From Clytia hemisphaerica (taxonomy: Eukaryota > Cnidaria > Hydrozoa > Leptothecata > Clytiidae), in contig CACVBU010001155.1 in the NCBI GenBank assembly GCA_902728285.1, positions 262,093 to 326,092 of the forward strand: a stretch of 64,000 nt of DNA, written 5' to 3'. Under the pieces are notes generated by a model. That model was not told where the DNA came from. It made no database searches and was given only the letters and a program-made list of their open reading frames with translations. Positions 424-46,566 of the stretch are shown here, one piece after another (the stretch's first letter is position 1; every line of letters starts with the position of its first letter). Position numbers and translations under genes: made by a program.

Positions 424-3400
424 TCAAATTCAGATTGATAATATCGATATTCAGCCGTTGGAAGTTCGGTCCCTGGTCTTCACCTTTGTGGTAACAATCG
501 AGCTGAAATGACAATAAAAGATCCCTGTTAGTACAGTTGGATTTTTGTAATTGAATCTTCTACGCATGTATGGCGAGGCGCTGTAGTATAGTGGTCATTG
601 ACCTTAGTTACTGCACAGGCGACTGAGGTTCGATCACCACTCGCAGCAGTTCACTTGGTAAGTGAATGAACCTTCGCCCGGGTCAATCTATGCCATGTGA
701 GGGGAATGGGTAGTCAGTCCAAGGTGCTCATTGAAAGCGTCTATAGTTGCGAAAACAGGCCTTAAAGCCTCCTCCAACTCAACCAAATAGAATGGAGTAT
801 GACAACACCCCAAGCTGAAAAGGCCAGACCTTAATCAAACGGAAAATGAGTTCGGAAAAACCTGGTAAGCTAGGAGAATTGACACCCACTACCAAAAACA
901 CGTTATTTTGATTCGTCCCTACGTTTTAGTCAAGTGATAAGATTTCTCCAACTGAAGGGGGTTATCGATTTCCAAAATCACCCGAGAATACCATGTTATG
1001 TTATTCCGCGTTAATTATAAGGTCAAAAAAAGAATTGAAGAACACTCAATCGCTATTCTTTTGGAACTTATAAAAACATTCGAAACTATAAAAAAACATT
1101 CGACTGACACTTTTATTTTGATTGCCTCAAAAATTTCGTACGATATTTTGTTAACCAATAGAAATTTTTGTTTACATCAGGGTGATTACAAAAAAGCGGG
1201 GCTATTACGGATTTATCGCCCCGCTCGTCCTTTACAGGGGGGGGGGGGTTCAGGGGGTATCCGATTCCGCAATTCCGCCAATTTTTTCTCCAATTTCCGT
1301 CAAACCGTCTTAAATTGAACCAAAATACCGTCACCGAAAATTCCTTTGAAATTCAATATTTTTGTCGAAAATTCCGCAAATTTGGAATATCTTTTACCAA
1401 TTCCGAAATTCCGCTATTTTTTTTGCTAAATACCGTTTTTCCGCACTAAAATTGTCTAATTTTCCGTCTCCGTCAGAGAACCCAATTTCCGTAATTCCGT
1501 CTAAATTTTCGCCAAATTCCGCCACTCCGTCCGAGAAAAGGGCCGATTCCGCTCCTCCGCCAAACGTGAAACCCCCCTTTACAAATATAAGCTAAATGTG
1601 ATCAACCATATAATTAAGTTCAAATTAAGAAAAATTCGAATAACACACGTTCGAATAAGAGAGACTTGACTGTAAAGTTGTTGAAGTTTTGAGCACTCAC
1701 GATTGAAACTCCTAATTTTATTTCATGAACCCTTTTCTTGCAGGGAACCATAAAAGAGTTTTCTAGATCGCTAAGTCATTGGGCGAAGCTTGGAAATTCT
1801 TATTTTATTAGAAACATGTATCAACGTTAGACTTCAGGGAAGAACACATCGTGAAACATGTGAATCTCCAAAACGAGACCATTATTAAAACATATTATCA
1901 AAAGCTATAGATACTTGCATATTTGCCATGCGTAATGAAAGTAGTGGTCAAATAGGTAACAGAGAAATAGTGAGAGGATGTTTACAAATAGAAATCATAA
2001 CATGACTGTGACAATCTTATATTCTGAAACCCCTACTGTGTCTTGTGTCCACGTTTTATTATGGATAAGCTAACGTCATCATGACTTTTGCGTTACTGTT
2101 TTATGAAAATGACGGGGTTTTCGATATATGTATTTGCTAGGCAATCAAATGGCAAATGAATAAGTCTGGATTCTGCACAGTGTAATCCTTGTAATTGAGT
2201 CTGCAGTATTGATTTTACCACGAACCCGGGGGGGGGGGGTACTTAGGCAAATTAAGACGGCTATTAAGTACCCGAGAGTAGGTATTTTAATAAACCAAGA
2301 CATTAAGGGTATTACACTGGTTTGACATAGAAGGATTTCGATGTAGTACACGCTTCTTTTATAAGAACAATCTTATTAAGAACATCAGGCTGAAAGTTTA
2401 AGACCAAAACTTAAGAACAAATGAAGAACAATCTGAGCCTCAGCTCTCAGGAATTATTGATTTTAACAGATTTTAACAGATTTTAAACGCATATTAAGAA
2501 CGCCGTAAGAACATTTAAGCCTGAAAATTTCAAAAATTAAGAACAGCCCAGCTTGATTCAAAATTTACTGATTCTTATTAAAAAAAAGCGTGTTTTATCA
2601 AGAATATGAAAACTGTGAGACACAGTAGGCCGTAGGAAGATTGATATTAAAAATCCAGACTTAATTAAATTTTTTGTATTTTCAAAATTGCCTACATAAA
2701 TTGCAGCCTTTACACACACAGTGTCCATATTTGATGACGGAGAGAGATTAGGAGGGCGTGGTGAAGCCTTCTTACAAAGTTATTACATAATGAAATAAAG
2801 ACGTTCTTTTATCATTAAAACTTTAACATGCTGCTCTTCTCCCCATTGCTGGGAAGACGTTTCTCTGGTATGAACTTTTTTCTAAGAACAAACAATTGTA
2901 ATTCCTGCATAATGAAATTGCCAAAACGATTTCTTGGTTTTGAGCCTTTAGATTTACACGAATAAATTATTGAAATTCATAATAATTAGTGAATGAAAGC
3001 CAAGCAAGCAATACTTTAGCTCAAGAGCTCATTAATAAGGAATTTAACCAATTAAAGATTCTTATAAAACGGATTTCTTATACGACCATTGCACCTGTAG
3101 GTTTGAAAACTGGACAGTCTATAATACCTCACCGTCAAACAGAGTACAGAGGCAATGTAATAAATTCTCATTTGAACGGAATTGTGAATCTATATATAAA
3201 GAAGGATGGGATAATGAAAAAAATATTAAAGTGTAACCAGAGGTGAAAGCAAGCTATCGAAATCAGTTGGACATCGTTACGAGTTCAACTTTAGTTGGCT
3301 GTAGGTTCTGCAGTTTCACACACAAACCATGACGCGCCAATTCATCTATTTCGCAATTCTCTTTGTTGCTGTTTACAGTATCGAGGGCGCGCCAAAAGAT

Positions 3401-6400
3401 GTAAAATCAGATTTCTATCATGATTTGGAGAATCTAGACAGAGAACAGATTGTGGAAAGGATAGATGACCCTTTGCCAGGTGGCAATGTTTCATGTGATG
3501 ACTTTTTCACCGTTCGTCACAAATGGGGTAAAGGAATAAATGGTAAAATGAATTTTGATGTTCCCCAAGATGTCAGCGGATGGAAAATTACGGTAAATAA
3601 ACTTTTTTTGCTGCAGCTGACTAGCAATATTGTTAAAAGCGCCCAGGGGTATGTGCAGACGATAAGGGTCGGTTTTTTTACCTTTCAAAGTCTCTCTAAG
3701 GTTAAAATATCAGAAAATTTCAAAGTAGTCACTCTAAAGGTCGAATAATTCATGATTTTTAGGAATTCCTTTTTTGATTTCGAGAAAAAAATTGTAAAAG
3801 GTCTCTCTAAGAGTAATTTTTAAAAAAGGGAGGACAACTTTTCAAAAAAGTCTCTCTAAGGGGCACTTTTTCACTAAATATTTGGTTTCTCTAAGGGTCG
3901 GTTTTCGGAGGTCCTGTCCGCACATACCCCTCATTCGCCAACCCTAGCAACCCCCTTCCGGGTTAAAGCGGCGCTTCTTTGATCACTTTGTTGGTCTATC
4001 ACGTTTTACAGTTTTGTTTTAGTCAATCCCTTTAACAGTACTACAATGACTTAAAGTGACGACACCCCTAGGGACATATTTGTAAAAAGTTACAGACGGA
4101 ACGGTGTCGAGAGAAATGCCGTCTCCTTCTGGCACAGAAAGAAATTTATTGATTAATGTTAGTCTTGGTTATTGCAGTCTATTGAAGTCTTCGTTATTGC
4201 AGGACCATACTAATTAGAAACAGGTAAAGATTTTAGGCACCAATACCGCCACAAACCCAGAGCATCCCAGTTCAAACTCGTTTCCCGATTCGAACCTTAT
4301 TCCTATCATGTTATGTTTAGAAAATACCATATTCTTATAATTGAAAATGCTCTAAAAATGGTATTCTTAGCTTGAGTAGCAAAATTCAATGATGGTGATA
4401 TTCTTAGCATTATTCTTAATGTTTTGGCCATTTTCATCATGGACATTCTTATAAAGTGCATTCTTATATAAGAAAAGCGTTTAGTACGTTAAGTACGCTA
4501 ACTAATACAGTATTTTATGATTTTTAAAACTACTCCACTTCGAATCTATCAACCTCACCTTTTTTTCTATAGGTCCAATTGACAGATGGTCTTGGGAAAT
4601 TGTACATGCAACAAGCACGTGCACCAGGTAGAATACAGATAGGCTGTAAATTCTCATTCACCAACTACCGATACAATAAAGTCATCAAAGCTAATGCAAC
4701 GTTTAGCAACAGATTCACTTTATTTTCATCAAAAGCAAAAATCGGATACATCAAGTTCGAAAGTGGATCTTTCAGCATGTCGTGTGGCTCTCCCGTCGTC
4801 TGCCCCACACTACCTCCAGGCGTAACTACCACTCGAGCACCAAAACCCACCCTTCCGCCTTTAGGAGGCGACTGCTCAAATTTCACACGAGTTAAACGAA
4901 GTGTTCCAGGTTTTGACATAGGTGTTATAAAATTTTCACTTCCTGCTGCTTTGAGACGATGGAGGTTGAAGGTATGTGTTCTCCTTTTTTATTATATTCT
5001 TTATAAGCCAATCACAAGTTTCCAGCTAGTCTCCCAGTCTGTATCAATGATCTCCTTAGTAGCTTATGTGTGAAAAACGAAACACACGTCCTAGCCACCA
5101 GCGTCAAATACTCTCGTCTTGGTAGTTTTTTGTTCGCATTCCATTTTACAATTACCTTTAAAGCTCCCTAAGCCTCAGATAATACAACAAAGAATGGACT
5201 ATTCCAGAAATAGGAGGTGTAACGTCCAGGGTGGTCTGAAAAGAATTCCAGAGGCGTCTAGTTTTCGAAGGAAAAATATAGAATGGTCAATTGAATGAGT
5301 TGGAAAATCCAGGATGGTCAGCAAAACGAGATCGAAAATCCAGGGTGCTCCAAAAATTGAGACAGAAAAATCCAAGAGGGTTCTGAAAATTAAAAAAAAA
5401 ATCCGGGGGTGACCCTTCCCCAAAAAGACCTACCCAACATAGGGAGTATAATTTTTTTCAGGAATAACCCATTGTTTATGTTTTGATTCTCATATACAGG
5501 TCGGCTTCGTCGAGACTGTATCTAATTTTCAAATCCAACGTGGCGCGAACATGATGGGTATCATGCAAAAATGTCCTCAAGCCAAATTCTACAATTACGT
5601 CAAAGCATCTAACAGACGAGACAGAGCTGGCAAACCCATGGTGTTCCCTTACGCTTTACACTACAACCAAAACAGCGCCAAACCCACCATTGCTTTCTTT
5701 GAGATCAGTGATGGTAAAAATACATTCATGTGTGGAACTAAGCCCAGTTGTCCATCCACCCCCGCCCCTACAACAACGGGTGCACCCACCCCAACCAACT
5801 ATACAGGTCCAACTACCAACGCCACGGCTGCACCCACTACAACAATGGCGCCCACTTTACCACCACCCATGCCGTTGAGTGGAGCTGATTGTTCCGTATT
5901 CTTGAAAGGAGTCGAACAAGGTTTCAGTGATCAACGAGGTGTTATGGAATTCTTGGTTCCACAAAAATCTAATGAATGGCAACTTCAGGTAATTTTCAAT
6001 TTTGAACCAAATTTCTTCGCAAGATGTTGTAAAAATTGTGATCCAATCACAAATGTGAGTGACTCCCTAAGCAATTTTAAGTACCTAAAAAGCGCACTGG
6101 TTTTGAAACGAGCGGCCATGAGCGTCTACGAGCGGCCAGGACTGTTCGAAATCTGATTTTCTAGGAGATTAGACAGCTCTTAATCAGGTACTTTGAATCG
6201 TTTTGGGAATAAAAAATTACTTGCAAACTTTATACCTAATAGACTCTGAAGAACACGATAAACCTTCGTGATCTTTAACAAATGATTCAGGAAACCGTGA
6301 TGTGAGAAAAAGAAGCCTTATATCTAGCTGTAAACAGTTTGGATTCCAAAACGAATGGACAAACGTCAAACTTTTACATTTAAGGTTGGATTCAAACCTG

Positions 6401-14745: not shown

Positions 14746-14749
14746 GTGT

Positions 14750-20562: not shown

Positions 20563-21018
20563 CCGCCCCGGGGGGGGTACTTAGGCAAAAATGGGTGCTG
20601 GGTATGTGCGTGCCTTAAGGGTAGGGTTTTTCACCCTCCCAAAGTCTCTCTAAGGGTTACCAAAACAACAAAAGTCAAAATCAGTCTCTCTAAGGGTCGG
20701 TTTTTTCACAAACTCGGGTCAAAGAAAAGTGAAAAGTCAAAAAAGTGAGAACATTTTTAAAAAAAGTGAGAAAATTTTTCAAAAATTAGAGAAATTTTTC
20801 GAAAATTGGAGAAATTCTTTTAAAAATCGAATTTCTTTGGCCCATTATAGAAATTTTTTGTGAAAAAGTCTCTCTAAGGGTTGGGTTTTTCTACACTGAG
20901 TCTCTCTAAGGGTCACCTTTTCACCAAAATTCAGTCTCTCTAAGGGTAAGGGTCCAGAGGTCTGGCACGCACATACCCGACACCCATCAATCCTAGTACC
21001 CCCCCCCCCCGGGCACCG
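20563..21018. mobile_element. G-run-ended element with AGTCTCTCTAAGGG array (full copy)
   Basis: The left end CCCCGGGGGGGGTACTTAGG, followed by GGGTATGTGCGTGCC, is matched inverted at the right end (GGCACGCACATACCC, then CTAGTACCCCCC and GGGCACC). Six or so TCTCTCTAAGGGT units lie inside in both halves. Flanks CACCCGC and CACCGC may be a worn target duplication. No protein is encoded. Confidence 0.75.
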
Positions 21019-22479: not shown

Positions 22480-25388
22480 TCACAATTTGAAAATATGTAA
22501 AAATTCTTCGACGGTTTTCCCATACTTCATAAAACAGTCAGGAAACCTGGAAAAACATTTGACAACTTGCTTCTTCAAGAAAGCGTTTGAAGCACCCTGG
22601 TTTCGCATTCGAATGAAAAGCTCAGTGACTCTAGGAGTCAGATCTTCAAACATGAGTGTGCTACGTGCTATCCGTAAAATTTCTGAAAAGACGGATCCAT
22701 AAAAAATGCACGATGGGATGTTACTGTCGGCATGTGGCATCCTTACAATGAAGAAGGGAAAGGCATCTCTCTTATCAAAAAGTTTATATCTAAAAATATT
22801 GTTTTCAACGGTGATATCTAAATCTAAAAACGATGCATGGTTTCCATGGTGCTCAACTTTGAGATCTAATTCTTTAGGGTAAATCTGTTTGTAGCAATTA
22901 TGAAACTCATCTCTGTCATTTAAGGCACACAAATCATCAATAAATCTACCTACAGAGTGGAAGTTATAGGCACTAGGCGAACTAGCAGAAATGAGACCTT
23001 TGACATACTCAGATTCAAAATGGTACAAAAACAGATTTGCCCAAAAAGGAGCAGGATCTATTCCCATGGGAATTCCAATGCACTGTTTAAGGATAGAATT
23101 GCCAACTTTGAAAAGCAATTTTTTATCAGAAAGGACACACACTCAGACAGTGAAGTACTAGTAAAGAACCTATCATCCTTCCCTTTTGTAGTCCAGTATG
23201 CTGAAGTATTTGAAAAACCAAGTTTATTTCTACAACCTAAATCAAACACAAAGTTAATAATTTTGGTTAAAATTTCAATGAGAAGATCGTGTGGAAGGGT
23301 TGTGTACAGTGTTGCAAAATCGAATGTCGAAATTCGTTTTGCTTTTTTCTTGGCATTGATTCTGTTAAGATGTCCAATAACAGGCGAAGAATTTTGTACA
23401 ACCCAGAACTTATTGAAACTAGAAAAGAAACGAGATTTATGATGGAATTGCTCAACATGTTTGTATAGAACTTTGAAGACCATGGATACAGCACGAGACA
23501 GCGGTTTGGTACTACATGATTTGGAAGCAATGATGAAGCGGCAACCAATAGGATTCTTATGCATTTTAGGAATCCAATACATAATGGGGAGAGTTTTCAT
23601 TTTGTCAGATAATGATAATCCAAATGTTTTACACAAGTTTTCGCTATTTTCTAAAATGGAGTTCAAATCAAGATTAGAAGGCTGATAGGTGTTATTTCCA
23701 GAGATTTCTCTAAGTAATCTAGAAACATAAAACTTTTTACAAATCAAAGCAAAGTTCTTAGATGCTTTGTCGATTGTGACAATGACAAATCTTTTCTGTA
23801 AGGTTTCCAGATATGCCAGCACTTCTGGATTCTTTAGAATAGGTTTAGTGTCATGTATTTTCGTTTTCTTTTTGAGTTTTCTAATCTTAATTTCAACTTT
23901 CGAAATAATTGTGTCCCTCCAAAATTTAAATGCCCTAGCTTTGAATTTAGTTTTTTGCTCTAAAGTATCAATGCATTCATCTAAACTAGTAATGATATTT
24001 TCTAAAGCTCTTTTAAAATTTACATGTTTTGGTTCACGGTAGTTGGGGCCTTTTGTTAAAAGTTTACGTAATTTAGAGTTTTCTACAATTCTCAAATCAC
24101 CAGTTATAATGTGTTGGTGGAAAGGATCACAAAATTCTGAATTAACACATTCACAACGATCAGAGTCAAGTGTAAATGAGACCTCATCATCGATAAAAAT
24201 AGAATTTACAGTGTCTTGATAATTGAGAATTTTATTTCGTATAGTTTTATGTAGAGAATAAGTGACAACTGGTCTATTTTCTTTGGTTGTGAAAGGTTCA
24301 GGAAGAAGTTCTAAAATGTCAGGTTGGTTTAAAATAGAAGGAAGATGAATGAGTTCTATGGCTTTGTTGTCAAAAAATACATTGCAAATATGTTTTGGTG
24401 CTACTTTCTTTGCTTTACTAGGGAGTGGAATATAAATAAGAGTTTCGATGATATCCAAAATGTAAAGATAGTGTTGCTCAGAGAAAGAGTCAAGAGAAAC
24501 CAAAGGACCACGTGAGATAATTTCGGAAGCAATTTTCTTCAAAGTCGATTTCTTTAGCCTGTTAAGTGCAACTCTGATATCATAGAAAGAATCAATGATG
24601 TCATTCTGAAGATGATTGTCAAGAAAATTGAAAAAGTCTGTGTGGCTAGAAAGTATTTGATGGTTATTTCTATTATTACCACTGTGTGTCATTCGAGAGA
24701 TAAATCTGGTGATTTTAGGAAATAGTTTTCCCACTGGAAGATTTTGATCATGTCCCCTAGCTCTCTCATTAAGACCGTAGGGGAAGACAGTTCGGAGCTC
24801 CTTCATCCAGAAATTTTCTCGGTCTACACGTTGTTTTCTAGCTTCTGGACAGACTTTCTTTTCTACATAACCATCCCCATTGAAAACTTCAATGACCTGA
24901 ATATTGAAACCTGCACCTGGGCAAGCATCTTTGAAATGATTTATCATATGTTGACAACCAGTCTTTGCAGTTCTATGGATGTTCATTCGGATATTTAATT
25001 GTTTTGTAGTTTCTCCAACATATTGTAGTTTACAATGTTTGCAAGAAAGAAGATATATAAGATTTTGAGAATGGCAGGAAATGGTTTCATTGGAATGATT
25101 TATTATTTGATAAGTTTTTTTAGTCACATTAGACATGAAAAAAGAATTTGTTGAAAGGTTAGGGCAAGTCATGCATCTAAGCCTGTGAGACTGTGCACGA
25201 CCGGATGGCTGATCCCCATTGGCTGATGAAACAGATGTGGAAGGACTTCCTGCTTCCGCTGAAACACCAACTACGGCTTTACCCTGTCGAGGATTAACCA
25301 ACCTCCTAGGGCGATTCCCACCATCCCTAGGGGAAGTCACCCGGGGAGGGGGCTGCCCTCCCCGAGTTTGCGATCTGGTTATAGGCAT
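22480..25388 (-). CDS. Naiad-type Penelope-like GIY-YIG nuclease / reverse transcriptase, one frameshift
   Basis: The protein copies element RNA into DNA at a nicked target. From the N-terminus I see a basic, Pro-rich leader, a CMTC zinc-knuckle-like motif, and a GIY-YIG nuclease (NLIYLLSCKHC..LQYVGE..R..IHR). After a linker come the TIDKASKNF motif, the palm motif FDFATLYTTLPHD, the B motif GIPMGIDPAPFWANLFL and the catalytic FIDDLCALND. The N-terminal nuclease followed by RT is the permuted order of the Naiad clade (known from published PLE work). The frame changes near 23111-23114, where one base is missing from a short A run (plus-strand view), between KNCF and KVGNS. The two parts, 25388-23058 and 23142-22480, otherwise join without loss. 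The ATG at 25388 has no earlier in-frame alternative that I trust. Confidence 0.88.
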
Positions 25389-25467
25389 GTCTAGAAAATA
25401 TAATAATTGAATCAGTGGTTAAAAAGTTAGATTTTTCATTTTAGTGGCTATATGTTCATGAACGGTA

Positions 25468-25561
25468 TATATATAGTCTAGAAGTATAAAACCTTCAACT
25501 ACTCAAAATGGAAACAATAAAGACAAAAACCCACAAAACAAAAAGACAATACAAATACAAC
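25468..25561 (-). repeat. 5' terminal direct repeat of Naiad copy 1
   Basis: Partner of 21502-21596. It lies about 80 bp upstream of the ORF start and may hold promoter sequence for the element. I looked for a hammerhead ribozyme core (CUGANGA followed by GAAA) here and found none. Confidence 0.8.
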
Positions 25562-26222
25562 AAAAATCTAGAATGAACATTCACAGAAAATCAATCAGGT
25601 TGGAGTAGAAAAGGAAAATATGATGACATAGAAATCCGTCAATGTAAAACTAGTGATCTAAAATGACTTTAAGGAAGAAAGTAACTCAATATGAGTTAAG
25701 ATGGAATGAAGTAACTCAATATGAGTCAAAAAAATATTTCAAGAAAACACATTATCTGTTCCTCAGTTTTCGACCTACACAGGATTTCGGCCTTTTACGA
25801 AAATATCCTCCTATATGATGGAAATAGGGTTGTGTAGGTAGGCCAAGCAGTGTTAATTAAACACCACCACAGATAAAAGATAGTAAAAAGATGTGTTTAT
25901 TGAAAGTATAAAACGCGCGCAATAATATAAAATAAACTAAAACGTAAAAACCACGGAACCAGCCGAAGAAACTAAAATTACAATGAGAAAAGAAGTATAC
26001 TTTCTACTAGACAAAGTTGCCACACCTTTGACACGTTTCTGCCACAACGTTGAAGAAAGCATACTAGAAGAGAAGGAACTGGGATTGGATTGCCACTATC
26101 CAACCCTGTGGCTCTCACACACATTTTACAGTTCAAAGAATAAGATGGAAAGAGTGGGGAAAGAATGAGAATTTAAAAAATCGGACTATAACCCGGTTCG
26201 AAGCCCCGTACACCGTGACCGC
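25562..26222. other. spacer between the two Penelope-like elements
   Basis: Probably 5' flank of copy 1 and 3' untranslated tail of copy 2. I see a 14-bp direct repeat AACTCAATATGAGT (about 25685 and 25714) and a GGTTCGAAGCC stretch at 26190 that resembles a tRNA T-arm but has no A box. No host gene. Confidence 0.4.
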
Positions 26223-28929
26223 TCACCGCAAGAGCTGGCGAACGAGTGAATCTTGAGAGAGTTGAAATCTTGAAAATTCTGAAAAATGACGAACTATAAC
26301 CCGTCGAAGACTGCAATCTAACTTTGCGTTTTCAGCACCTTGACATCGCATTCTTTGTATAAAAACTTTGGCTTTAACTTTCAAGTCCTCGAAAAGTAAC
26401 GTAGAACGAGCAATCCTGAGAAGTTCACCAACAAAAGAAGAATAAAAAATCGATTCTGGCAAGTTGCTATCTTTATGTGGCATTCGGACTATGGAAAAAG
26501 GAAATGCATCCCGTTTATCAAACAACTTATAAATAAATATCCCGTCTTTGATGGTAATATCCAGGTTTAAAAAAGAAGCATGATTACCCGAGTGCTCAAT
26601 TTTGAGTTCAAGCTCATCTGGATAGATATCTCTATACACAGACTGAAACAAGTTACCGTCATTGATAGCACACAAATCATCAATGAATCTTTTAGTCGAA
26701 TGAAAATGGCGAGCCTTAACCTTATTTTCCTCAATGACCCTGCTCATATACCTTTGTTCGTATTGGTAGAGGAAAAGATTAGCCCAAAATGGCGCCGGAT
26801 CGATTCCCATGGGAATCCCGATCACTTGACACATAACAATATCACCTGCATTGAAAAAACAATTTTTTATCAGATGTTTCATAGCAGTTTTCAAAGAATT
26901 CTGTGTAAAAGACACAGAAGATTTGGGTTTTGTTTTTGACCAATACGCTTTATCATTTTTAGAAATAGCGATAAACTTGCAGTTACCTGCATCAAATACA
27001 AAATCAATGACCTCTGATAGTTCTTTAATCAGTTTGTCATGAGGAATCTTTGTGTACAATGTACTAAAGTCAAAGGTGGAAATAGATTTGGCGTTTTTCT
27101 TTTTATTGATTCGGTTGAGTGAATCTAGTACTGGATCACAATTTTGAAGTACCCAAAATTTATTATAATTGCTCAAAAACTTTGCTTTTGTATGGAAATT
27201 TTCAACTTGTCTGTAAACAAGCTTAAAAACTAGACTGACAGATCTAGAAATCAGTTTGGTGGAACAATGTTTTGAAGCGATAATGAAACGTTTACCAGTA
27301 GGAGTCTTGTGTTTCTTTGGAGTCCAATAGATACATGGAAGATCCAAGTCCTTCTCAGAAACAGCAAGACCAAAACGTTTAGAAAAACGAACATTTTCAT
27401 TCACCATTTCTGCTTTATTCTGATTAACTCTAATGTATGTTTCATTTCCTGCACCCAAAATCCCAATCTCCTTCAAAATTACTTCAACATAGAAACGTTT
27501 ACAAATAAATGCAACGTTATTAGCAGCTTTATCAATGGGGACAATAACAAAATTAGTGTGTAAAACATTCAAATAATCAGTAACATCTTGTCTTTTGAGC
27601 ACAGAGCTCACTTTATTGTACCTGATCTTCTTTTTCAAAAACTTTATCTTTTTATCCACCTGTTTTAACACTTCAACTTTCCATTGAAGAAAGTTTTCGT
27701 CAGTCTCATTAATTTTGGCTGAAGTTTTATTCACAAAACTATCCAGACCACTAGAAATAACATCTCTGCATTTATTCCAATTGATATTTCGAGGTTCACG
27801 ATAATTTGGTCCCTTGGATATCAATTTTCGCAAATGGTTATTTTTAATGAAACTTAAATCTCCGGTCATGACATGACCATGGTCTAGATCAATAAAAGGA
27901 GAATCGTGACACTCACAAGATGGAAGGTTGGTGCCAAAAGTTTCTAAATCTGCTGTATTGATGGAATTTACAGTTTCTTTATAATTAAAGATTTTATTTC
28001 TAATCGTAGGAGTTAAAGAGTAAACAATCGATGGTGGATCTTTTTGAAGTATTTCAGGAAGTTTGGAATTCACACAAGGCTTGCGAAGAATATTTTTGAG
28101 CTGAATAAACTCAAGACCTTTATTGTGGAAATAAATAGGAAGGATGTGGGAAGGAGATTTCTTAACATTAGCTTTATCAATTTTCATAGTCTTTGTGAGA
28201 AAAGTATCGATCAATAATTCATACCATCTTTTCAGATGACTTTCGCAAGAAAAAAGTGAAGTGCTAGCTTGTTCTGCAAGTTTTCGTAAATTTGACTGTC
28301 GAAGCCTATCAAACAAAATGCGACATTTCTTGGAACGTTCTTCCGGAGAAAAAGAAAAAATGGAATGAACAAGAGAATCTAGATCAGAGATCCTAGCCTT
28401 AACTTTGGAGCGGTAACGGTGCTCAACAAACTTAGTGCCATGTCTGGGAAGAGGTGGAAATAATTTCCCAGCCGGAATGTCCTTGTTCATAGATTTTACT
28501 CGCTCATTCAAACCATATGGATAAATAGATCGTAAAGTTTTTATCCAATGATCTTCTCTTTCTAGTCGAAGTTTTAACATTGCAGGATCAATTTTCCCAT
28601 TTAAATAACCATCACCGGGCAAAAGTTCAAGAATCTGGATGGTAAAAGTAGCACCGGGACACACATTCTTATAGTGATCAATGGAAATTTCACAACCTGA
28701 TTTTCCTTTTCTGTGAATATTCATTCTAAGATTAAGAGAGACAGCACTTTCACCAACATATTGGACAAAACAAGACAAACACTGAAGAACATAAACATAA
28801 TTTTGCACTTTGCAATTAATGTTATCCACATCAACATCAAGTGCATGGACTCTGCCAGTCATATTTGATTTTACAAAGTTATTTTTAAGTAAGGCAGGAC
28901 ATATATATACCAAGTTTCAATTTAGTCAT
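26223..28929 (-). CDS. Naiad-type Penelope-like GIY-YIG nuclease / reverse transcriptase (copy 2)
   Basis: One long frame from 28913 to 26223 (about 896 codons) carries the same domains as copy 1. They are GIY-YIG (YVYVLQCLSC..QYVGE), PIDKAANNV, FDFSTLYTKIPHD, GIPMGIDPAPFWANLFL and the catalytic FIDDLCAINDG. All expected catalytic residues of the RT are present. The protein is clearly diverged from copy 1, so this is a different family, not a duplicate. The 5' end is imperfect. The frame has no ATG before stops at 28917-28919 and beyond, while an ATG at 28929 lies in another frame that meets this one at a short TA run, consistent with loss of a dinucleotide. The N-terminal CxxC of copy 1 is not conserved (only one Cys). 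No terminal repeats were found. Confidence 0.87.
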
Positions 28930-31492: not shown

Positions 31493-31501
31493 TTCGTAAA
31501 C

Positions 31502-33107
31502 GAGGCTCGGAAAACACGAGTTAAAAAACACGAGTTAAAAAACACGAGTTACAAAAAACACGAGTTACGTTAAATGTGACGTCATCAATGGGAAATGATG
31601 ACGTCACAAGTAGATAATTTAACTCGTCAATTTATGGTGCACCATAATCTTACGAGTTAATTAACTCGTCAATTTATGGTGCACCTTAAACTGACGAGTT
31701 AATTAACTCGTCAATTTATGGTGCACCTTAAATTGACGAGTTAAATTTTCATGAAACCAAGTTGGTCAAAAATTCTAAAATGGTGGTTAAATTATTTTTT
31801 GAGCCTATTTTTAGTTTAAAACTATTGGAATGGTAATTTTCTCTCATAATATTCTATAGTCTTTAACTGAGACAGCAGTTGACAAAAAGTATTTAGGCTG
31901 GCTCAAATGCTAAGGGAGGTCATATGTATAGAGTTTTGTTTCCTGTAGAGATTTAAAAATAAAATTACGAATTTTGAAGCTTTATAGCAAAATGAGGAGC
32001 TTTTCTTTTGGTAGCTGTGAATTTTTTGAAAAATCAATAAACGGGGGGGGGGGGGGGGTCCTAAAGTCTATTCACGATAAGTGTGCACTCTTTTTTCTTT
32101 TACCTATAACTTTTGAAGGAATTCTTCAATCTTTATAAATTTGGTATCGTTGGAAAGATATTAGTGAGTGGAACAATTTGAAATAAAAAAATCTTTAAAA
32201 GAATTCTAAAAATGAAGATGAAAATGAAGAAGAAAAAAATGAAGATCTTGTAGAAAAGTGCTATAACTTTCATTTTCACTGGAGAGATTCTTTGATCTTA
32301 GGAGATCATCACTGTGAAAAAATTTCATTAAAATATTTATTCAATATAAAGTTATGATACAAAGTTAATAAGTGATTGACCCCAAAAAACAGCAAAAAAC
32401 TGCAGAAAACAGCGTTTTTAGACGTCAATCAGCTTATAACTTTGTTTGATATCTTTTGACTGAATGATTATTTTTGAGAATTTTTTTCACAGTGATGACG
32501 TTCGATGATTAAGAATTCACTTCAGTGAAAATGATAGTTATAGCACTTTCTACAAGATCTTCATTTTTTTCTTCTTCGTTTTCATCTTCATTATTATAAT
32601 TTTTTTAAAGTTTTTTTTATTTCAAATTGTTCCACTCACTAATATCTTTCCAATGATACCAAATTTATAAAGATTTAAGAATTCCTTCAAAAGTTATAGG
32701 TAAATGAAAAAAGAGTGCACACTTATCGTGAATAGACTTTAATAAGGTCCGGGGGTTGGAAAAAATCGAAAAATTTTAATCTGAATTTTAGAATTTTTGA
32801 CCAACTTTGGTTTCATGAAAATTTAACTCGTCAATTTAAGGTGCACCATAAATTGACGAGTTAATTAACTCGTAAGATTAGGGTGCACCATAAATTGACG
32901 AGTTAATTAACTCGTAAGATTATGGTGCACCATAAATTGACGAGTTAATTAACTCGTAAGATTGAGGTGCACCATAAATTGACGAGTTAAATTATCTACT
33001 TGTGACGTCATCATTTCCCATTGATGACGTCACATTTAACGTAACTCGTGTTTTTTGTAACTCGTGTTTTTTAACTCGTGTTTTTTAACTCGTGTTTTCC
33101 GAGCCTC
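31502..33107. mobile_element. 1.6-kb foldback DNA transposon with 9-bp TSD (MULE-like)
   Basis: Inverted ends of roughly 285-310 bp begin GAGGCTCGGAAAACACGAG. They are flanked by TTCGTAAAC on both sides (31493-31501 and 33108-33116), a perfect 9-bp duplication. Each arm contains three or four ACACGAGTTA units, a palindromic TGACGTCAT pair, and several ACTCGTCAATTTATGGTGCACC-like units. No transposase is encoded. A 9-bp duplication fits Mutator-like elements. A second element (32064-32739) is inserted in the middle. Confidence 0.85.
32064..32739. mobile_element. 676-bp palindromic TA-flanked element (copy 1, nested)
   Basis: It starts AAGTCTATTCACGATAAG and ends with the exact complement, with TA on both sides (32062-32063, 32740-32741). 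The two halves pair along nearly the full length, with a centre around the CAGCAAAAAACTGCAG stretch. It is inserted inside the foldback element and is therefore younger. Confidence 0.85.
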
Positions 33108-34442: not shown

Positions 34443-34526
34443 CTTTATTCTTGCAGCTTTCCAACATCCAAGCTCTCAAACATCACAAGCCGTATGAAAT
34501 TACTTTCGATTTCCTGTAGAAATTAT

Positions 34527-35045
34527 TAGGGGGGATGTTAGGACTAATTTTTTAAGCCCATTTGTCAAAAGTTGCCATTGGGTATAAAAAGAAGAAAAAT
34601 TCATGTGAAAACCCTGTGGAACTTTTTTCAAGGTTGCCACGGGTAGGGTGCCACCGCCGCTCCGCCAGCAAAATCGAAATTTCAAAAATTTTCAAAACAT
34701 AGTGAAGTGACCCCTCATTTGAAAGGTATTTTCATGCTGGTTAAGAAAATCAATATAATGAGGTTGAATAACACTGTCACAAAAAGTAATTTCCAACAGT
34801 TGGCAAAATTTTGAGGATTTTGCTAAAAACGCAATTTTTTGATCGTTTTTCTTAAGTTACATCTTGTGAGAGTGTCTTTCACCCTTACAATATTGATTTT
34901 CTTACGGTGGCACCCTGCCCGTGGCAACCTTGAAAAGGGTACCACAGGGTTTTAACATAATTTTTTCTTCTTTTTATACCCAAAGGCAACTTTTGACAAA
35001 TGGGCTAAGAATTTATGCCATTTTTGCAAAATAACATCCCCCCTA
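34527..35045. mobile_element. 519-bp inverted-repeat DNA element with 7-bp direct flanks
   Basis: It starts TAGGGGGGATGTTA and ends with the complement. The arms pair over about 130 bp (sharing GCCCATTTGTCAAAAGTTGCC-like and CACAGGGTTTT blocks). It is flanked by AAATTAT on both sides (34520-34526, 35046-35052). No coding capacity. Confidence 0.75.
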
Positions 35046-35077
35046 AAATTATGCGATGAACAATCCGGGGTCAATGA

Positions 35078-37594: not shown

Positions 37595-37596
37595 TA

Positions 37597-38277: not shown

Positions 38278-38749
38278 TAAGTATACAAACTGTATACATA
38301 TAATATTGGAAGTAAAAACTGATGTGGACCTGCAGGCTAAGAAAAAAAAAAAGTAAAAAAAAAAAAAGGAAAACCGCTGCAAAGGCAAAATAAGGCTGTG
38401 TTGTTGCTGTATCTTTTTATTTCGAAGTTGATATGTGAACAGTGTTTTTCATTTCTCCATAATTTTGCAAGACCACCAAACATTATCAGGTCATGTTTGG
38501 GCTTGGTTATAAAAACGTTCTTTTGGCCTGGATAAGTAATCCACTGTTTTCATCTTAAGCCAGGGATTGAATTAGCGTATCGCATTTCGCAATTCGCGAT
38601 GCGTTTTTGGATTACTTACAAGCTAAAATTTGAAAATTGATCCATTTTAGGATCAAAAGTCATGCTTATCAAAAAATTGCAATGCACTTTCTATCTCTTA
38701 TTCCGATGCCTGTAAGCATGGAATGTTTATTTTGAGATCGTTTTTACAG

Positions 38750-38940
38750 CTTGGTAAAATCTCTGTTTTGTTTTTGATAAAAATAAACTTGTGTTCTTTT
38801 AACACCCCCTGACAGCTGACAATTAAGCCTGCTTGACTTACCTTTTTTCTCTTTCCTATCCCAACAATACAATGCTTAAATAGTTAACACATAATAAAGA
38901 CATTGAAATACTACATGAAAATTCAGACCGCTCTTAGGCA
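38750..38940 (+). repeat. dispersed repeat, direct copy of 36468-36660
   Basis: See the partner entry; the CCCCCTGACAGCTGACAATTA core is identical. Confidence 0.6.
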
Positions 38941-40338
38941 TTTTTTTAGTGAATATTGTTTCATTACCCTTAAAGATTAAAAATAACAAACCACCCAACC
39001 ACCTGTTTGATCAACCCAGTGAGAAAAGTCACATTAGCAAAATTATTGTCAAAAAAGTCAAAATTACCCCACAAATATACCTTCATGATTGCTTCAAGAT
39101 TGCTACCCTTAAATAAAAAAAAACTGTTGAAGAGTTTAAATGAAATTTGCCAAAAAGCATCTGACCATGAGGTGGTCCTTCCAAAAGTATATGAAAGCAA
39201 TTTTTTCGAACTATTTTTACCAGCTTTTTCCAACCTTATACTTGAAAAATCATAATGACAATCTTAGGAGAACCCAAAAAATATCTTTGTTCACAGTCTA
39301 GCACGTGAAGTTGTTTTTATTCACCTGACTTGTGTAATCTATAATATATCAACCTATTATAATCTTTAACTTTCTTTAAATTTGGTCTTGTCTTCAAATA
39401 ATTATAGCATTAAAATATCAAGACCGCACTTTTGTCAGTCAAATTATCTGGCCAGCTGGTAAGTTTCTTTGCAGTGTTTTCTGGGTGGCTGTTTTAGATC
39501 TTTTAATATGATGAGAGGTGTTTACATGACTTGACCGAATATATTTACATTGTAAGACATTTGTTCTGAACTGAATAAATCCTAATACATAACCTAGGAT
39601 CCTTGTGCTAATATTTCAGTATCAAAGAACCTTCATCTCGTCTTGTTGATGTTGGTTGATGGTCAGGCTTGAACTCATCCTTGCTGGAGAGAACAGGCTC
39701 TTATAAAGCCAGGGTGGAGAGCTCACTCAGGTCCATTCTTCCAACAAAGATGCAAAGGAGGAGTGCACTGGGACAAACGGAGATCAAGACTCAAGCATGT
39801 TATGCATATATAACATTTTCATTTCAGACGACTAACATTAAATCATCATATACAAAGGCTGAAAGTTTCAAATCTATACCCAACAGACACACCTTTAGGT
39901 TAAGGACTTAAGCTCTAGGCTTAGTTTTTCAATATTATTCATTTTCTGATTTTAACTGACATTTTGACTTAAAATTTAAGCATTCATCCCCCTTTTAAAG
40001 TCTCTTGACTCAGAATGTATTTATTTTCTCCTCAAAGAGTACTGGGTAGTTCAATAGAGCAGTATAATAATTACAGGTGACTAAATTCTTATTTTTTACT
40101 CTGTGAGTTCAGCTCTAGATATCCATTCCATTAAGGCTCAAATCTCAATTTATTATTAATATTAGATATTCCAGATTTTAAGACTCTAATACTGCTTAAA
40201 AAGGATCTTTTCAAAAGATACTTAAATTAAGGGAAAGTGCTTTAAATGAGAGGAAAACAGAACCTTTATCCATGTCATCCAAATTAGTAATGTATTATTT
40301 TTTTTCTTTTAAGTGTCCAAAATAATAATAAACACAAA
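38941..40338. other. upstream region of the fructose-bisphosphatase gene
   Basis: No protein recognised. A pyrimidine tract ending in AAG (about 40295-40313) shortly before the start codon looks like a 3' splice site, so a non-coding first exon or a trans-spliced leader may join here. Confidence 0.4.
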
Positions 40339-43300
40339 ATGGCTGGTTCAATCGACACTGATTGCATGACCTTAAACAGGTTCATTTTACAAGAACAGAG
40401 AAAATCACCAAATGCTACTGGGGACTTGACTCATCTCCTTAACTCAATTTTGACTGCTGTTAAAGCTATATCAACTGCTGTCAGAAGAGCTGGGATGACT
40501 AAAATGTAAGTCCTTCATTTCAAAGCATAAAATACTAAGATTTTATACTTACCGAGAATTACCCATTATAAATTCTGATAAATTATTCATTGCATTTTCT
40601 ACATTGTATATCATTGTTTGTTTCTCACAAGTCAATACTTTTAACACTGTTTTACTCTTATCAGTATGTTGTTTGGTGTTATTAAGGGAGGAGGGTAGAG
40701 AGTTAGCTTAAAAGGGAAGAAATTTTCACGGAAAGAAATTTTCGCAGAATTTAATTTCGCGGTTCACAGCTCAAAATTCGGAAGTTTCAAGGAATTTAAT
40801 TTCGCCGCTGAGAGGATTTCTTGTTTAAAATATGGCCTATTTCGCCCTAAAAGGACCAATTTTATATGTGATTTTTTAAATCATGAGAATATTCGTTTTT
40901 CTCGGAATTTAATTTTACAGGTTTGTCCAAAAATTGCGAAATTAAATTCCGCAAAAATTTGTTCTGTGAAAATTTTTTCCCGCAAAAATCTTTTCCCTTA
41001 AGGTATTAAAAAACTTCCAAACTTTAACTATTTTTGAACTATTTAAACCTAGAATTCTGTATCGTAAGGTTACCCTATTTTTGAAGGTTTGGAGTTGCTG
41101 GACATGACAATGCGACTGGGGACAAGGTGCAGAAATTGGACGTATTATCAAACGAACTGTTTATCAATATGTTGCAATCATCTTATACTGTCTGTGGCAT
41201 GGTTTCAGAAGAAAATGAAAACATGATTGAAGTAGAAACAGAACGTCAAGGAAAATACATTGTTTATTTTGATCCATTGGACGGATCTTCAAATATTGAC
41301 TGTCTTGTTTCTATTGGTTCAATTTTTGGTATCGCCAAAAAGGTTTGTTAAAATTCGAATATGTGTCTCATAGAAGGTTTCTGGCCCTGTAAAGTCAGTT
41401 TTTCCCCAATGATTGTTTTAAATAGAGGTAATGATAATATTAAAGTTTTTACTGTGTTTTTTTTATCACTTTTCACAGGGGAAAAATCACAAAAAATACT
41501 CTAAAATTAATCTAATTAAAGTAATCTAAATCTACTTTTCAATCCCATTTCAGAGATGTATAGTTTTGAAAAGGTAATAAAAGTTACCATACATTATTAA
41601 GTTTGCCATGCTTCAAATTGTCAATTTTATAATTATATTGATTTTTATTGTTTTGTTATTCTTATTTCTTATTTATTTATAATTGTAGGACGATGATGGA
41701 CCATTAACTAAAGAATCTTGTCTTGTACCAGGAAGTCAATTCGTAGCATCTGGGTATGCTTTGTATGGTAGTGCAACCATGGTCGTGCTGACTACTGGAA
41801 ATGGTGTTAACGGCTTCACTCTCGATCCTGTAAGTTTCCACTTCATTTGTATGAGATTACATACTGCATTCCTTGAAAATATTCTTTGAAAATCTTTGCA
41901 CCGCAAAGGAGACAAAGATCAAGTCGATTGATTCTTAAGAGTTTAAATAGCATTGATATGGGGCATTTGAATTGATCTTCATTTTTTGATTTGTTTGAAA
42001 AAAGTTATCAACCAGTACCGACCTGCCCTTACAGCAGTACGAAATTAGGCTTTAATTTATACCAGATTTCAATCTGTTGCAATGATCTTATTTCAATACA
42101 ATGGCATTTAACCTAGTCATGTCATATAAGCTTCTTCATGTTTGAATACACCTATCAATCTTAAAACCACAATGTAGAGATAAGATTCAAATAATCTTAA
42201 AAACGTTTCAACACGATACCCTATTAAGCTTCATGTCTGAATATGCATCTATCAACCTTAAAACCACAATGAGATGAGATTCGATTTTACCGCATCTATA
42301 ATGACGTAAAATGCATGTATTTGTTAGCATGGTAATGAAATGACATCAAATGATTCTACTAAATATGCCAGGCTTAAAAAATCAGTGCTAACTACAGGCC
42401 CGCCGGAATAACCGTAAAAGTGTGGAGGCTGAAGGCTCAATATGAGATAAAATTCGCTAGGAATTTGAGAAAAAAACTTCGTTTACTTAAAAGTGGGGAG
42501 GCTGGAGTCTCCCCAGTCTCCTCGCTTCCGCCAGGCTTGAACTATATTATACATTTGATTGGAAAACATTTTCCTACGGAGTTTGTTATTAATTTCGTTA
42601 TACCCAGGGGGGGGGTTCAAGCAGTTAATCCAAAACACTATGCCTGTTTTGACCGTGGTGGTCCATTTTCAAATTTTGAAAAATAGAGTTAATCCAAGAG
42701 TGGATTAACTGCCAAAGGGGTGGTCTCTGAAAGAATTCTGGGAAAAAAACGTGGACTAACTGCATTTTCTGTCATTCTGGAAAATTCATTTATTCTGATT
42801 CATGCTCGTTTTTGCCTCTTCTTCTGTCTTTTAAAACGTCAAATTGCATCAAAGTCTTGCTTTAACTTTCTTTAAAGTTAAAATTACTTAGAAAGTCGAC
42901 CAACATCAATTAAAATAACTTAATGCATGCCAAAATGCCGCGGTGGACTGTTTTAGGGGGTGGTATACAAAGATTGTGACTGAAAAACAGTAAATCCAGT
43001 GTGGATTAAGTGTCAGAATGGGTGGGTGGTCCTAAATATCATCCAAAATCAGTTACTACGGATGATGTTCTGGGTTAACTGCTTGACCCCCCCTGTTATA
43101 CCATGTGATCAATTTTCAATGTTCTCCTTTAAGGCTATTGGTGAATTTTTGCTAACAGACCCTGACATGAAGATTAAGCCACGTGGAAAAATTTACAGTT
43201 TGAACGAAGGTTATGCAGCACAATTTGATGAGCCGCTCAAGAAATACCTGGAATCTTTAAAAAACCCATCTGTAAGTTCTTTGATCGCTCCCAAAAATTA

Positions 43301-44661
43301 ATTTTGCAATTTCATAGTCTCCAGTAAAGGTTAATTGTTGTTTTTCTGGATAAGCTAATAATTTCAGTATCCATGCTTGATTTGATTATACGAGCCACAT
43401 TTCTAAAAGGAAGACTTCGATTATTTCATTGAGAAGTGATGATTTGCAATATCATCCGCAACCAAACTAGTATTCACCAGGGAGCCAAAGTCATTAATTA
43501 AATGAAAATATTATATCCACATCTTAGGTTATTTCACAAGCTTTTCCATTCTCTTTATTCTAAAAAGGGTGACAAGAAAGCATATGGAGCACGTTACATT
43601 GGATCTATGGTGGCTGATATGCATCGTACCATCAAGTATGGTGGTATCTTTATGTACCCTGCAAATAAGTCTGCACCTAAAGGAAAAGTAAGTAGACATT
43701 GTATGAATTTGTACAAATCCATCCTTATGGATTATAAGTCACATAACCCTCTCAGCGTTTGCTTAGATTTTGGGACAAATAGTTTTCAATATTTTGTCAA
43801 CACTTCAGATGTATACAATTTTCAACTGCATACAATTTTCAACTGCGTTCATGCTTTTTTATTCCAAGATACCTCAGCTTCTAAAGTGTGAACAACAGAC
43901 CCGGGGGGAGGGGGGTTACTACCCTTGTCGATCGACGGGATGCTCCGCTGAGGTTCGAAAAATGGGCCCTACGTGAGACTCGTTTTTCAAAAATTTTGCC
44001 GAAATTTGCGAAAAAAGTAACCCTGAATGGGACTGAAATTCCAAAATTTTCTTCTACTTTTACCTTCGCCTTCCCCAAGACTCTCTACGAAGGGTTACAA
44101 AAACAACGAAAAGTCGAAATAGTTTCTCTGAAGATCAGGATTTCTCCTTTTTATGGGTCTTAAAAAATGAAAATCCAAAACTACTGTATCCCTCAAATGT
44201 TAGAGGATTTTTCGAAAATTTGCTTAACGGTCATTTTTTTGGCTGCTTTTGTCTCTGTAAAGATGACGAATTTTTCGCAAAAATTTTGTGTTTTTAAGGG
44301 TCGTTTTCAAAGGTCACATTCTCCAACTTCTCCAACCCTAGACCACAAGTATGAGACTACAGTATGAGCTGGTTTGAGTAAGACTACACGCATTATAACC
44401 ATGAAATTTTGTTAATCGAAGTTCCTCCAGTCCTAACGAAGCTTTCAGTATTAGCTTTAAGCTGGATGTGTTTTATTTTTTCAGTTACGTTTATTATACG
44501 AATGCAACCCAATGGCGCACATTGTTGAACAAGCAGGTGGCATGGCAACCGATGGTAAACAAAGAATTTTGGATCTCAAACCGTCTGCTCTTCACGAGCG
44601 ATCTCCTATCTTTATTGGATCGAAAGAAGATGTCGAAGATTTCTTGAAATTCCAAAGCTAA
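40339..44661 (+). CDS. FBP1: fructose-1,6-bisphosphatase, complete, six coding exons
   Basis: The enzyme hydrolyses fructose 1,6-bisphosphate to fructose 6-phosphate, the committed step of gluconeogenesis in the cytosol. Exons: 40339-40505, 41087-41342, 41689-41829, 43134-43271, 43568-43687 and 44485-44661. All have GT-AG borders and the first intron splits the Met codon of TKM. The spliced frame is 999 nt, 332 residues, close to the usual 335-340. The N-terminal [20 protein letters not shown] is the AMP-binding allosteric segment. VSEENE and [10 protein letters not shown] are metal and phosphate sites. [15 protein letters not shown] and [20 protein letters not shown] carry the substrate-binding Arg/Tyr residues and the family signature. 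No key residue is missing. Transposon-derived repeats occupy introns 3 (42605-43094) and 5 (43899-44346). A candidate polyA signal is at 45480. Confidence 0.95.
42605..43094. mobile_element. 490-bp CAGGGGG-ended element, 8-bp TSD, in FBP intron
   Basis: Ends CAGGGGGGGGGTTCAAGCAG and the complement are flanked by GTTATACC (42597-42604 and 43095-43102; the first G of the right copy also completes the CCCTG end). The interior repeats (A/G)GATTAACTGC-type units derived from the ends. It lies about 40 bp before the exon starting at 43134. Confidence 0.8.
43899..44346. mobile_element. G-run element with GGGACTCG/CCAAAATTTTC units, right end lost
   Basis: The left end CCCGGGGGGAGGGG...TACTACCCTTGTCG matches the element at 46259. 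The right side stops at CCAACCCTAGA without a C run. It lies in the FBP intron between 43687 and 44485. Confidence 0.6.
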
Positions 44662-45840
44662 GTTGTCGTGTTTAACTCTTATAGTTAAAAACTTGAATTT
44701 TAATACCACGTTTGCTCGCACTTTCTTGAAAGAATTCTGGATAAATTATGGATCATAGTTTTTGAATCTTTTTTGAATATGCACCAAATAACAAAACCTA
44801 GAACTGTTTGCCTCTCATTACTTTAGGATAGTTTCCACTGAATATATTTTGGATTAGAAAAGATAACTTTGTGGACAAAATGCTCCTATTTATACTATTT
44901 GCACATACATATGTTATTTTTTCATGTTAGCAAATCAGTTTTTTTAAGGTAGTGAAAATTTAAATTAAAAAAAGCCCTTTGCACTTTTCCTAAGATAGAT
45001 CAATAGCCATGCAGGCTTTTTTTACGACGAAGATAATTTTTTGCCGATGCCGTAGAATTTCTTTCCATAATTTTTTTACCCAATATTTCAATTTCTTTTA
45101 GATATTTTCTTTTCTGTTTAGATAATACTTTATTTTTTATTGTTTTTTAAAACTATTTTTTTGGACTGTGTTTAGGACTTTGTTAACGATATAATACTAA
45201 TTTTTGGTATGGAATCTTTAAAGATTTTTAAAGGTAAATGTGAAAATATTAAAGATAAAGTTGAACAGCATCGCATCGTCCCGGCAGAGAAGTCTTTCGG
45301 TATTACAATATCGTCAATATTTTTTAGCATTTAGAATTTTTGTGTTAGATTGCTTTTGTCTATTTATTTCTTATTTCTAGTTTCTTTGAATACTAAAGAT
45401 ATAGATGCTATATAAACGAGAATATAGATCATTCTCGCCTTTCTAATTCGTATCGTTTTGGATTCACTCGAAACATACAAATAAACATTTCCAAATAAGT
45501 CATTGTAACGCCGCTGAAAAATTCTATTACCATTTTAACAACATTTTGAGATTCTGGAACAATTGTCTCACGTTAGGAAATTTTACAGAACTTTTACATT
45601 TAATTTTTTTCCCGCTAAAAAAGGTGTGAAAGCTAGCCAAACCTCTCCTCTTTTCTTTTGAATGAGTGCACTACAAGGGTCATATTTTAGCAGGATACAC
45701 TGTATGGTGTTTGGTAACTTTATAGATTTGGCTCGCACCCATTTTGATTTGTTTTGCACGCATTATGTCGACATCTCGGGCTCATTTTCAGGTGGTTCCG
45801 GCAAAATAAGAATATTAAATCAAACTACACTGTCAGGTGA
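44662..45840. other. FBP 3' untranslated region and T-rich flank
   Basis: A long AT-rich stretch after the TAA with AATAAA at 45480. No other gene or repeat recognised. Confidence 0.5.
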
Positions 45841-45849
45841 TATGTCACA

Positions 45850-46075
45850 TGTTCGACAACCCATTTGTTCGACAACTCACTTGTTCGACAAATTCGTAAA
45901 ATTGTCGAACAAGTGGGTTGTCGAACAAGTAACTGTCGAACAACTGGTCTGTCGAACAATTAAACGATCAGTTGTTCGACAGCGCATCAGTTCGACATTT
46001 TTTAAGATTTGTCGAACAAATGTACCGTCCCACAAGTATACTGTCGAACAAGTGGGATTTCCCCCACTGTCAGGG
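45850..46075. repeat. inverted minisatellite of TTGTTCGACAA / TTGTCGAACAA units
   Basis: About a dozen copies of GTTCGACAA or its complement TTGTCGAAC occur in 220 bp, in mixed orientation, so the region can fold on itself. Several are followed by GTGGG. No boundaries found. Confidence 0.65.
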
Positions 46076-46258
46076 TCAGAAACGTTCCGGACGTTCTTTA
46101 AAGGCTCTGTAAGAGTATCTTTACACTGCTCAAGGGCTGCACTGTAAGACGAACCCCCAGGTTCTGCTCTCATGATCAACTAATGGTGATTCCAAACAAT
46201 TTATAGTAGAGGTGTGTGTGACTCTTTTTATATGTCCATGGTGTGATCAGACAACCTC

Positions 46259-46566
46259 CTGGGGGGGGGGGTACTACCCTTGTCGACCGACGGGGGTGCT
46301 CCGCTGAGATCTGAAAAATGGACCCTACGTGGGACTCGAAATTTGCGAAAAAAGTGACCCTGAATGGGACTGAAATTCCAAAATTTTCTCAAATTTTCTA
46401 CTTTTTCCCCAAATTTTCCAAAAATAGGCACCTTACGAGGGACTGATTTTTCTATTTCGGTGTTTTTGCGACCCTACCTGGGACTCGTGGAGGTTAAAAA
46501 AGGTACCCTGACCAGCGGAGCATCCCCGTAGCCCATCTTGCCCTAGTACCCCCCCCCCCCCCGGGG
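46259..46566. mobile_element. 308-bp G-run-ended element with perfect 8-bp TSD
   Basis: It starts CTGGGGGGGGGGGTACTA and ends TAGTACCCCCC...CCGGGG, and is flanked by ACAACCTC on both sides (46251-46258, 46567-46574). Inside are CCTACGTGGGACTCG units and AAAATTTTC spacers. It is the best-preserved member of the class in this window. Confidence 0.82.

Follow-up and report, generated by a model that had tools for sequence, protein, structure and literature searches.

Miniature inverted-repeat transposable elements (MITEs) are a known kind of mobile DNA, and the described systems closest to the elements reported here include one from a fly and one from a coral. Mar, a hAT MITE of Drosophila willistoni, is non-coding, 610 bp long and bounded by short inverted repeats, with 8-bp target duplications and ends reading CAG(G/A)GGTAGGC (PMC3517528). 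In Acropora, the CMITE families have different ends around one common internal region, with TTAA duplications and CC[C/T]T terminal motifs, as in piggyBac elements (PMC2872659). Here, we describe elements with a G run at one end and a C run at the other (G...C elements) in 64,000 nucleotides of the hydrozoan Clytia hemisphaerica (GenBank assembly GCA_902728285.1, contig CACVBU010001155.1, positions 262,093 to 326,092 of the forward strand; this whole stretch is referred to as the window). These elements are real mobile DNA, in several classes. They fall into five families (A to E), described from this genome only, which with a probability of about 0.82 represent several kinds of miniature, non-coding, cut-and-paste DNA transposons (MITEs), A and B being moved in trans by an 8-bp-duplicating transposase encoded elsewhere and C, D and E by others. 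Like Mar, A and B have short inverted repeats and 8-bp duplications and, judging from element size, are presumably non-coding; unlike Mar, they mostly start with CCC, and they have a variable G tract, a one-way internal 16-bp repeat and a weak nnnTAnnn-like target preference (PMC3517528). As in CMITE, families with different ends have an internal region in common, whereas TTAA duplications were absent from the sampled Clytia families (PMC2872659). Membership of the coral CMITE or of piggyBac MITEs was ruled out by this absence of TTAA and by duplications of 8, 6 or 7 bp of varied sequence.

Elements (Table 1) were sorted by pairwise comparison, genome searches (417,433,876 bases in 951 contigs) and sampled copies, and every G or C run of at least 6 in the window was catalogued. 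The original prediction had joined four of these insertions into one class with G-run and C-run ends and duplications of about 8 bp. Its architecture is not due to chance, because runs of at least 8 number 6 for G and 2 for C in the window (simulated means of 0.11 and 0.14, respectively, in 100 first-order Markov simulations) and three pairs of runs of at least 7 at a spacing of 250 to 600 bp, against 0.00 in the simulations. The 8-bp length stood for A and B and failed for C and D, and a fifth family, E, and the lone A left end at 2225 had been overlooked. Run-to-run lengths were 179 to 446 bp in 40 of 41 sampled A elements (826 bp in the remaining one) and 293 to 302 bp in 12 B copies.

Table 1. 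Positions of the G...C elements, and of one uninserted relative of a family A target, in the window.
Feature	Family	Position	Strand	Ends	Duplication or match
Element of the ~440-bp subfamily	A	20567..21013	+	CCC-G8-TACTTAGGC...CCTAGTA-C12-GGG	One of 10 sampled 410-450 bp copies, interiors 99.4% mean pairwise identity
Old element	A	3642..3962	+	G/C runs eroded	Aligns with three family A copies at 84.2-84.5% identity (317 bp)
Lone left end	A	2225..2250	+	CCC-G12-TACTTAGGCAAA	Family A match over 23 bp only
Intact element	B	46259..46566	+	CT-G11-TACTACCC...CCTAGTA-C14-GGGG	
Apparent A/B chimera	A/B	43900..44345	+	Left end as in B, right part as in A; right terminus eroded	No duplication seen
Element	C	1237..1577	+	Gn-TTCA...TGAAA-Cn	TTTACA (6 bp) at 1231-1236 and 1578-1583
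Element, shorter than relatives	D	42605..43095	+	CA-G9-TTCAAGCAGTTAATCC...GGTTAACTGCTTGA-C7-TG	TTATACC (7 bp) at 42598-42604 and 43096-43102
Element with long inverted repeats	E	34527..35045	+	TA-G6-ATGTTA...TAACAT-C6-TA	AAATTAT (7 bp) at 34520-34526 and 35046-35052; 7/10 rows in same register
Empty site of element L020	A	46670..46804	+		Uninterrupted relative of target, 130/135 identical over junction, one copy of GTTCTATT

For family A, flanks were compared at 70 ends, comprising the first 68 of 100 listed places (of 1534 matches) plus two in the window; this sample was not random, and as 40 of the 68 stretches were just 801 bases long, distant right ends would be missed. A right end of the strict pattern was found for 41 of the 70. 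Among these 41 elements, an exact 8-mer stood on both sides at one of the tried offsets in 26, a 7/8 match in 5 and a poorer one in 10, while shuffled left-right pairings gave 8/8 in 0.2% and 7/8 in 1.6%. Exact 8-mers were also present at 12 or more of the other 29 ends, where the right end departs from the canonical pattern. Family B showed an exact 8-mer at some offset in 11 of 12 copies and 7/8 in the twelfth, against 0 of 132 mismatched pairings (the B and C samples were the best-scoring 12 copies each and likewise not random). Flanking 8-mers of A and B thus match far more often than by chance, as had been predicted. In the 26 A elements with exact 8-mers, the bases separating duplication from run were CCC at 19 left ends and GGG at 20 right ends, so the usual A terminus is CCC and not the G run. 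The original prediction had overlooked these CCC and GGG triplets outside the runs of A and B; across all families, the ends agree in the G run only.

With the register fixed at CCC|GGG, 17 of 41 A elements matched at k = 8 and 1 of 41 at k = 9. In family C (12 fetched copies plus the window; two rows have common flanks) matches were found in 8 of 13 rows at k = 6, 5 of 13 at k = 7 and 2 of 13 at k = 8. Families D and E were each represented by nine copies, picked from the listings since both ends were found, and by the window element; D matched in 7 of 10 rows at k = 7 and 2 of 10 at k = 8, and E in 7 of 10 and 4 of 10, respectively, the extra base in E being the A of the terminal TA. Because fixed-register matches fall off beyond these lengths, we assign duplications of 8 bp to A and B, 6 bp to C, and 7 bp to D and E. 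The 8-bp duplication of hAT type is therefore present in A and B, and is not the rule in C, D or E, given their k = 8 counts. Two of the 8-mers originally proposed were too long: CCTTTACA around the C element reduces to TTTACA, its leading CC matching the element's own C run, and GTTATACC around the D element reduces to TTATACC, its eighth base being the G of the CA...TG ends, which removes the 8-bp duplication from the argument for hAT that had been built on this element and its CAGGG/CCCTG ends. Some rows call for care in reading these counts. Rows L124 and L134 of C have the same flanks (one insertion, two contigs) and L128 had its run edge set wrongly by the script; rows L159/160 and L161/162 of E are one locus in two contigs; and three D rows (0, 1 and 7) do not match in the 7-mer register. 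Such duplicated loci (L124/L134 and L159-L162) suggest uncollapsed alleles or segmental duplications in the assembly.

Target sequences were scripted for the 26 A elements and typed by hand for the rest, where the lists were restricted to cases that were exact or clear (10 C, 8 D, 7 E and, with the window element, 12 B). Family C prefers T....A, with T at symmetrised position 1 in 16 of 20 cases from the 10 hand-listed hexamers (P = 1.4 × 10−5), a preference that may be somewhat overstated because unclear rows were left out of the lists.

Copy numbers are high. The 19-base A left end gave 1534 genome matches and a control 0, and the looser A/B end GGGGGGGTACTNRG gave 4616 against 7 for its reversed control. 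Rough first-look candidates numbered 2009 for B, 892 for C, 106 for D and 111 for E, of which 40 each were scored. On that basis, 39 of the 40 other matches listed for the window B element had 96 to 99% identity and one 78%, and 39 other listed C copies had 96 to 98%. Families A and B are thus short, abundant and homogeneous, with CCC-Gn-TACT inverted-repeat ends and a duplication of fixed length, as MITEs are. Relatives of the D element are longer, at ~0.6 to 2.9 kb from the spacing of paired ends; the longest (L153, G000:C224:1584290-1587300, ~2.9 kb) contains an 84-bp unit repeated 4.3 times in tandem, and its longest frame (136 aa) runs over this array.

Uninserted sites were sought by joining the flanks of 41 of 52 candidate insertions (those with enough flank) and searching 353 kb of sequence. 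Four sampled A elements have uninterrupted sister sites. That of L020 lies in the window itself (Table 1); those of L052 (window 48582-48387), L068 (at L006) and L047 (at L024) are single diverged copies with 77 to 81% identity over the junction. The predicted single 8-mer was therefore seen in exact form at one of them, the L020 site. A further plausible empty site was found for L048, and L058 aligned poorly at its site. Other matches (L016, L028, L044 and L063) were discarded as tandem arrays, self-matches or not elements.

Interiors of A and B carry about four one-way copies per element of a 16-bp motif, AGTCYCNNNNAGGGTC (up to two mismatches). It occurred in 40 of 41 A elements, with a mean of 4.05 copies on the plus strand and 0.05 on the other, and in 14 of 14 B elements (including the one at 43900), with a mean of 3.86 on the minus strand and 0 on the other; in A, the most frequent intervals between copies were 40 bp (n = 30) and 34 bp (n = 25). 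Because the motif was defined once the A and B sequences had been read, finding it in these families is descriptive, and the test lies in its absence from C (0 of 13 elements) and its rarity in other window sequence (2 matches in 56.5 kb). No copy was found in the one E element searched. The interiors, originally described as unrelated-looking, are thus related between A and B, and unrelated in C and, less securely, in D and E. Short repeats near element ends are bound by hAT transposases such as Herves, Ac, Tol2 and Tag1 (PMC3143072), which makes it plausible that the A/B motif serves as a transposase-binding repeat.

Individual A and B elements in the window differ in preservation. The B element has the 9-mer GACAACCTC on both sides, with the 8-bp register GACAACCT at 46250-46257, in agreement with the 8-bp duplication first proposed for it; immediately to its left (window 45846-46053) lie short inverted and direct repeats of TGTCGAACAAGTGG. 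The 8-bp duplication proposed for the A element at 3642 is upheld as that of an aged copy, with TAAAAGCG and TTAAAGCG agreeing at 7/8 in the register CCC|GGG (by eye). The A element at 20567, listed earlier as lacking a clear duplication, has no exact one (best ungapped 8-mer, 6/8) and does have an imperfect one, CACC-C-GC against CACC-GC (by eye). No partner end was found for the stub at 2225, beyond which sequence gave only short partial genome matches. The element at 43900, rightly said to have no clear duplication, has no usable right end and looks, from its sequence, like an A/B chimera: it matches the B element at 79.7% over 148 bp, the A element at 20563 at 81.8% over 66 bp and that at 3642 at 70.4% over 81 bp, and it holds the internal motif in both orientations, the A-orientation copies being weak (up to 3 mismatches). 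This element and the D element adjoin exons of a gene at window ~43150-44660 whose C-terminal exon matches fructose-1,6-bisphosphatase (PF18913, frame 43502-43891), and both probably sit in introns of that gene. Outside the window, an A element covered by L041 and L154 (G000:C34:499790-504590) is apparently split by a ~4-kb inverted-repeat insertion with ends GTAGGACGGGGTGAATCGGAT (by eye), probably an unrelated DNA transposon.

The terminal tracts vary in length in the assembly. Among the ten A copies of 410 to 450 bp, the G run ranged from 7 to 17 and the C run from 7 to 16 bases. In the interiors of these copies, thirteen tracts of A or T, each 5 to 7 bases long, were unchanged in length wherever measurable. 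These data record instability in the assembly and not its cause, because longer tracts slip more and homopolymer assembly errors may contribute. Nor is the variability general, because the family E run stays at 6 to 8 in ten of ten rows. G runs that vary in length are also present within elements with a hAT domain, since three hAT copies of one family (L091, L092 and L103) have a G run of 8 to 11 at the same place near the 3′ end. A more far-reaching proposal, which we consider improbable, is that terminal G tracts were not inherited. They would instead have arisen or grown on separate occasions in three or more transposon lineages (those with 8-, 6- and 7-bp duplications), by a mechanism linked to transposition itself, for example the gain or loss of G during end processing or repair; several transposases would then tolerate or exploit the tract as a hypervariable spacer.

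Three other explanations have to be weighed. That the G...C pairs are minisatellite or slippage products with coincidental flanking 8-mers would suit the repeats in the interiors and the proneness of G runs to slippage. Duplications far above shuffled pairings, thousands of dispersed and defined ends, and empty sites refute it for A and B, and overall we give it next to no weight. The original prediction, in which one hAT-like machinery moves all elements and G-run ends are the only constant part, gains from the G...C ends of every family, from the abundance of hAT domains (99 PF05699 matches listed in the genome) and from the termini of D (CAGGG) and E (TAGGG...ATG), which we take to resemble those of hAT elements. 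What tells against it is that duplications differ between families (8, 6, 7 and 7 bp) with one register favoured in each, staggered-cut length being a property of the enzyme, and that the usual A/B terminus is CCC rather than G. A single class for all elements is ruled out by these lengths, and more than one enzyme probably moved the families. Some of the prediction survives within A and B, where one end type does accompany several interiors; C, D and E have other duplication lengths and other sequence inside the G run. One survey describes hAT lineages whose duplications measure 5, 6 or 7 bp, among them hAT6 and hAT7 with the 6- and 7-bp lengths of C and of D and E (PMC12730594); no transposase linked to C, D or E was found here. 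A hAT origin is possible but unproven for each family, and a single hAT machinery for all of them is quite unlikely.

The third alternative is that a KDZ (Zisupton-like) transposase, and not hAT, drives A and B. KDZ domains are common in the genome (110 matches listed), and in the same survey Zisupton makes 8-bp duplications, as in A and B, and Kyakuja 7-bp duplications with CA..TG ends, as in D; two Kyakuja families are described there without terminal inverted repeats, which D has (PMC12730594). In our judgement hAT has about an even chance as the superfamily of A and B, KDZ is a possible but clearly less likely source, and the remainder falls to other superfamilies.

Several observations weigh against reading the families as MITEs mobilized in trans by distinct transposases. 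The transposase itself is missing from a limited search: no autonomous element or transposase with A-E ends was found in the 3′ flanks of 20 of the 99 listed hAT matches, KDZ ends being outside the search, and among listed G/C runs up to 1.35 kb downstream of those 20 none had an A/B (TAGTACCC-type) or D-type end, so the expected full-length hAT element with the same ends did not emerge. Where copies were comparable, hAT 3′ ends read ...CCACCACGCTACTG or ...GATCCGTCCCTG. hAT termini are usually CAGGG, from which the CCC of A and B differs, and even this CCC is not invariant (1 of 26 A elements reads CA and 1 of 26 CCCCA). Not all A and B copies keep one register: one C further in, 8 of 41 A elements match at k = 9, which indicates that C is often the next base, and in B the CCC|GGG register holds at k = 8 in 5 of 13, because the numbers of C and G beside the runs vary. 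Among the 29 A ends without a strict right end, several look truncated or interrupted and others are unclear. Preference for the hAT target consensus nTnnnnAn or nnnTAnnn is weak, with T in A and B together at symmetrised position 4 in 32 of 76 (P = 0.04) and at position 2 in 29 of 76 (P = 0.15); A alone gives 25 of 52 (P = 0.01) and 23 of 52 (P = 0.04), respectively, and B alone neither. The B element has no uninserted copy of its site in the assembly, where both flanks are single-copy. The D and E samples are small (10 rows each), a weak match to the A/B motif occurs in one of two D elements, and run-length variation may be inflated since homopolymer lengths can be misassembled.

No recognised transposase was found in the longest D copy, in L041 and the next 4 kb, at the lone end at 2225 or at a partnerless B end in L014. 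A 15-mer scan gave no match in the genome contigs collection and 22 matches in viral contigs, which were judged to be chance, the pattern being so short. In a literature search for families A-E that included their end sequences as text, no paper was recognised as describing them; the end sequences brought up a single paper, on HIV, whose title suggests that it is unrelated. Elsewhere in the window, minus-strand frames at 22480-28916 with a GIY-YIG match (PF01541) and a sub-cut-off reverse-transcriptase match look like what we take to be Penelope-like elements; 31511-33098 is taken up by arrays that face each other, are based on TTAACTCG and have 42-bp units on either side; and at 53928-55303 the 4-bp unit CGTC is repeated ~346 times in an array that is open in several frames.

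A and B insertions carry inverted-repeat ends of the form CCC-G(about 7-17)-TACT, next to which stands (T)AGG or ACCC. Under the MITE reading, a transposase of an 8-bp-duplicating superfamily (e.g., hAT or KDZ/Zisupton) would recognise the CCC/TACT end, and perhaps the repeated motif as well, leaving an 8-bp target duplication on insertion. Families C, D and E were probably moved by other transposases, because their end sequences differ and their duplications are 6, 7 and 7 bp. Rather than a recognition sequence common to the families, the G tract would be a spacer near the cut site, unstable and lengthened in several of them. A tempting error is thereby corrected, as a common G-run end and an apparent 8-mer duplication do not prove a common transposase. 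Because some copies are young (B up to 99% identical, and one A subfamily 99.4% on average), the families could be used as insertion markers. With one end type, several interiors and a common one-way motif, the A/B group is also a good system for studying the internal sequence requirements of a transposase and the reasons why homopolymer ends are retained.

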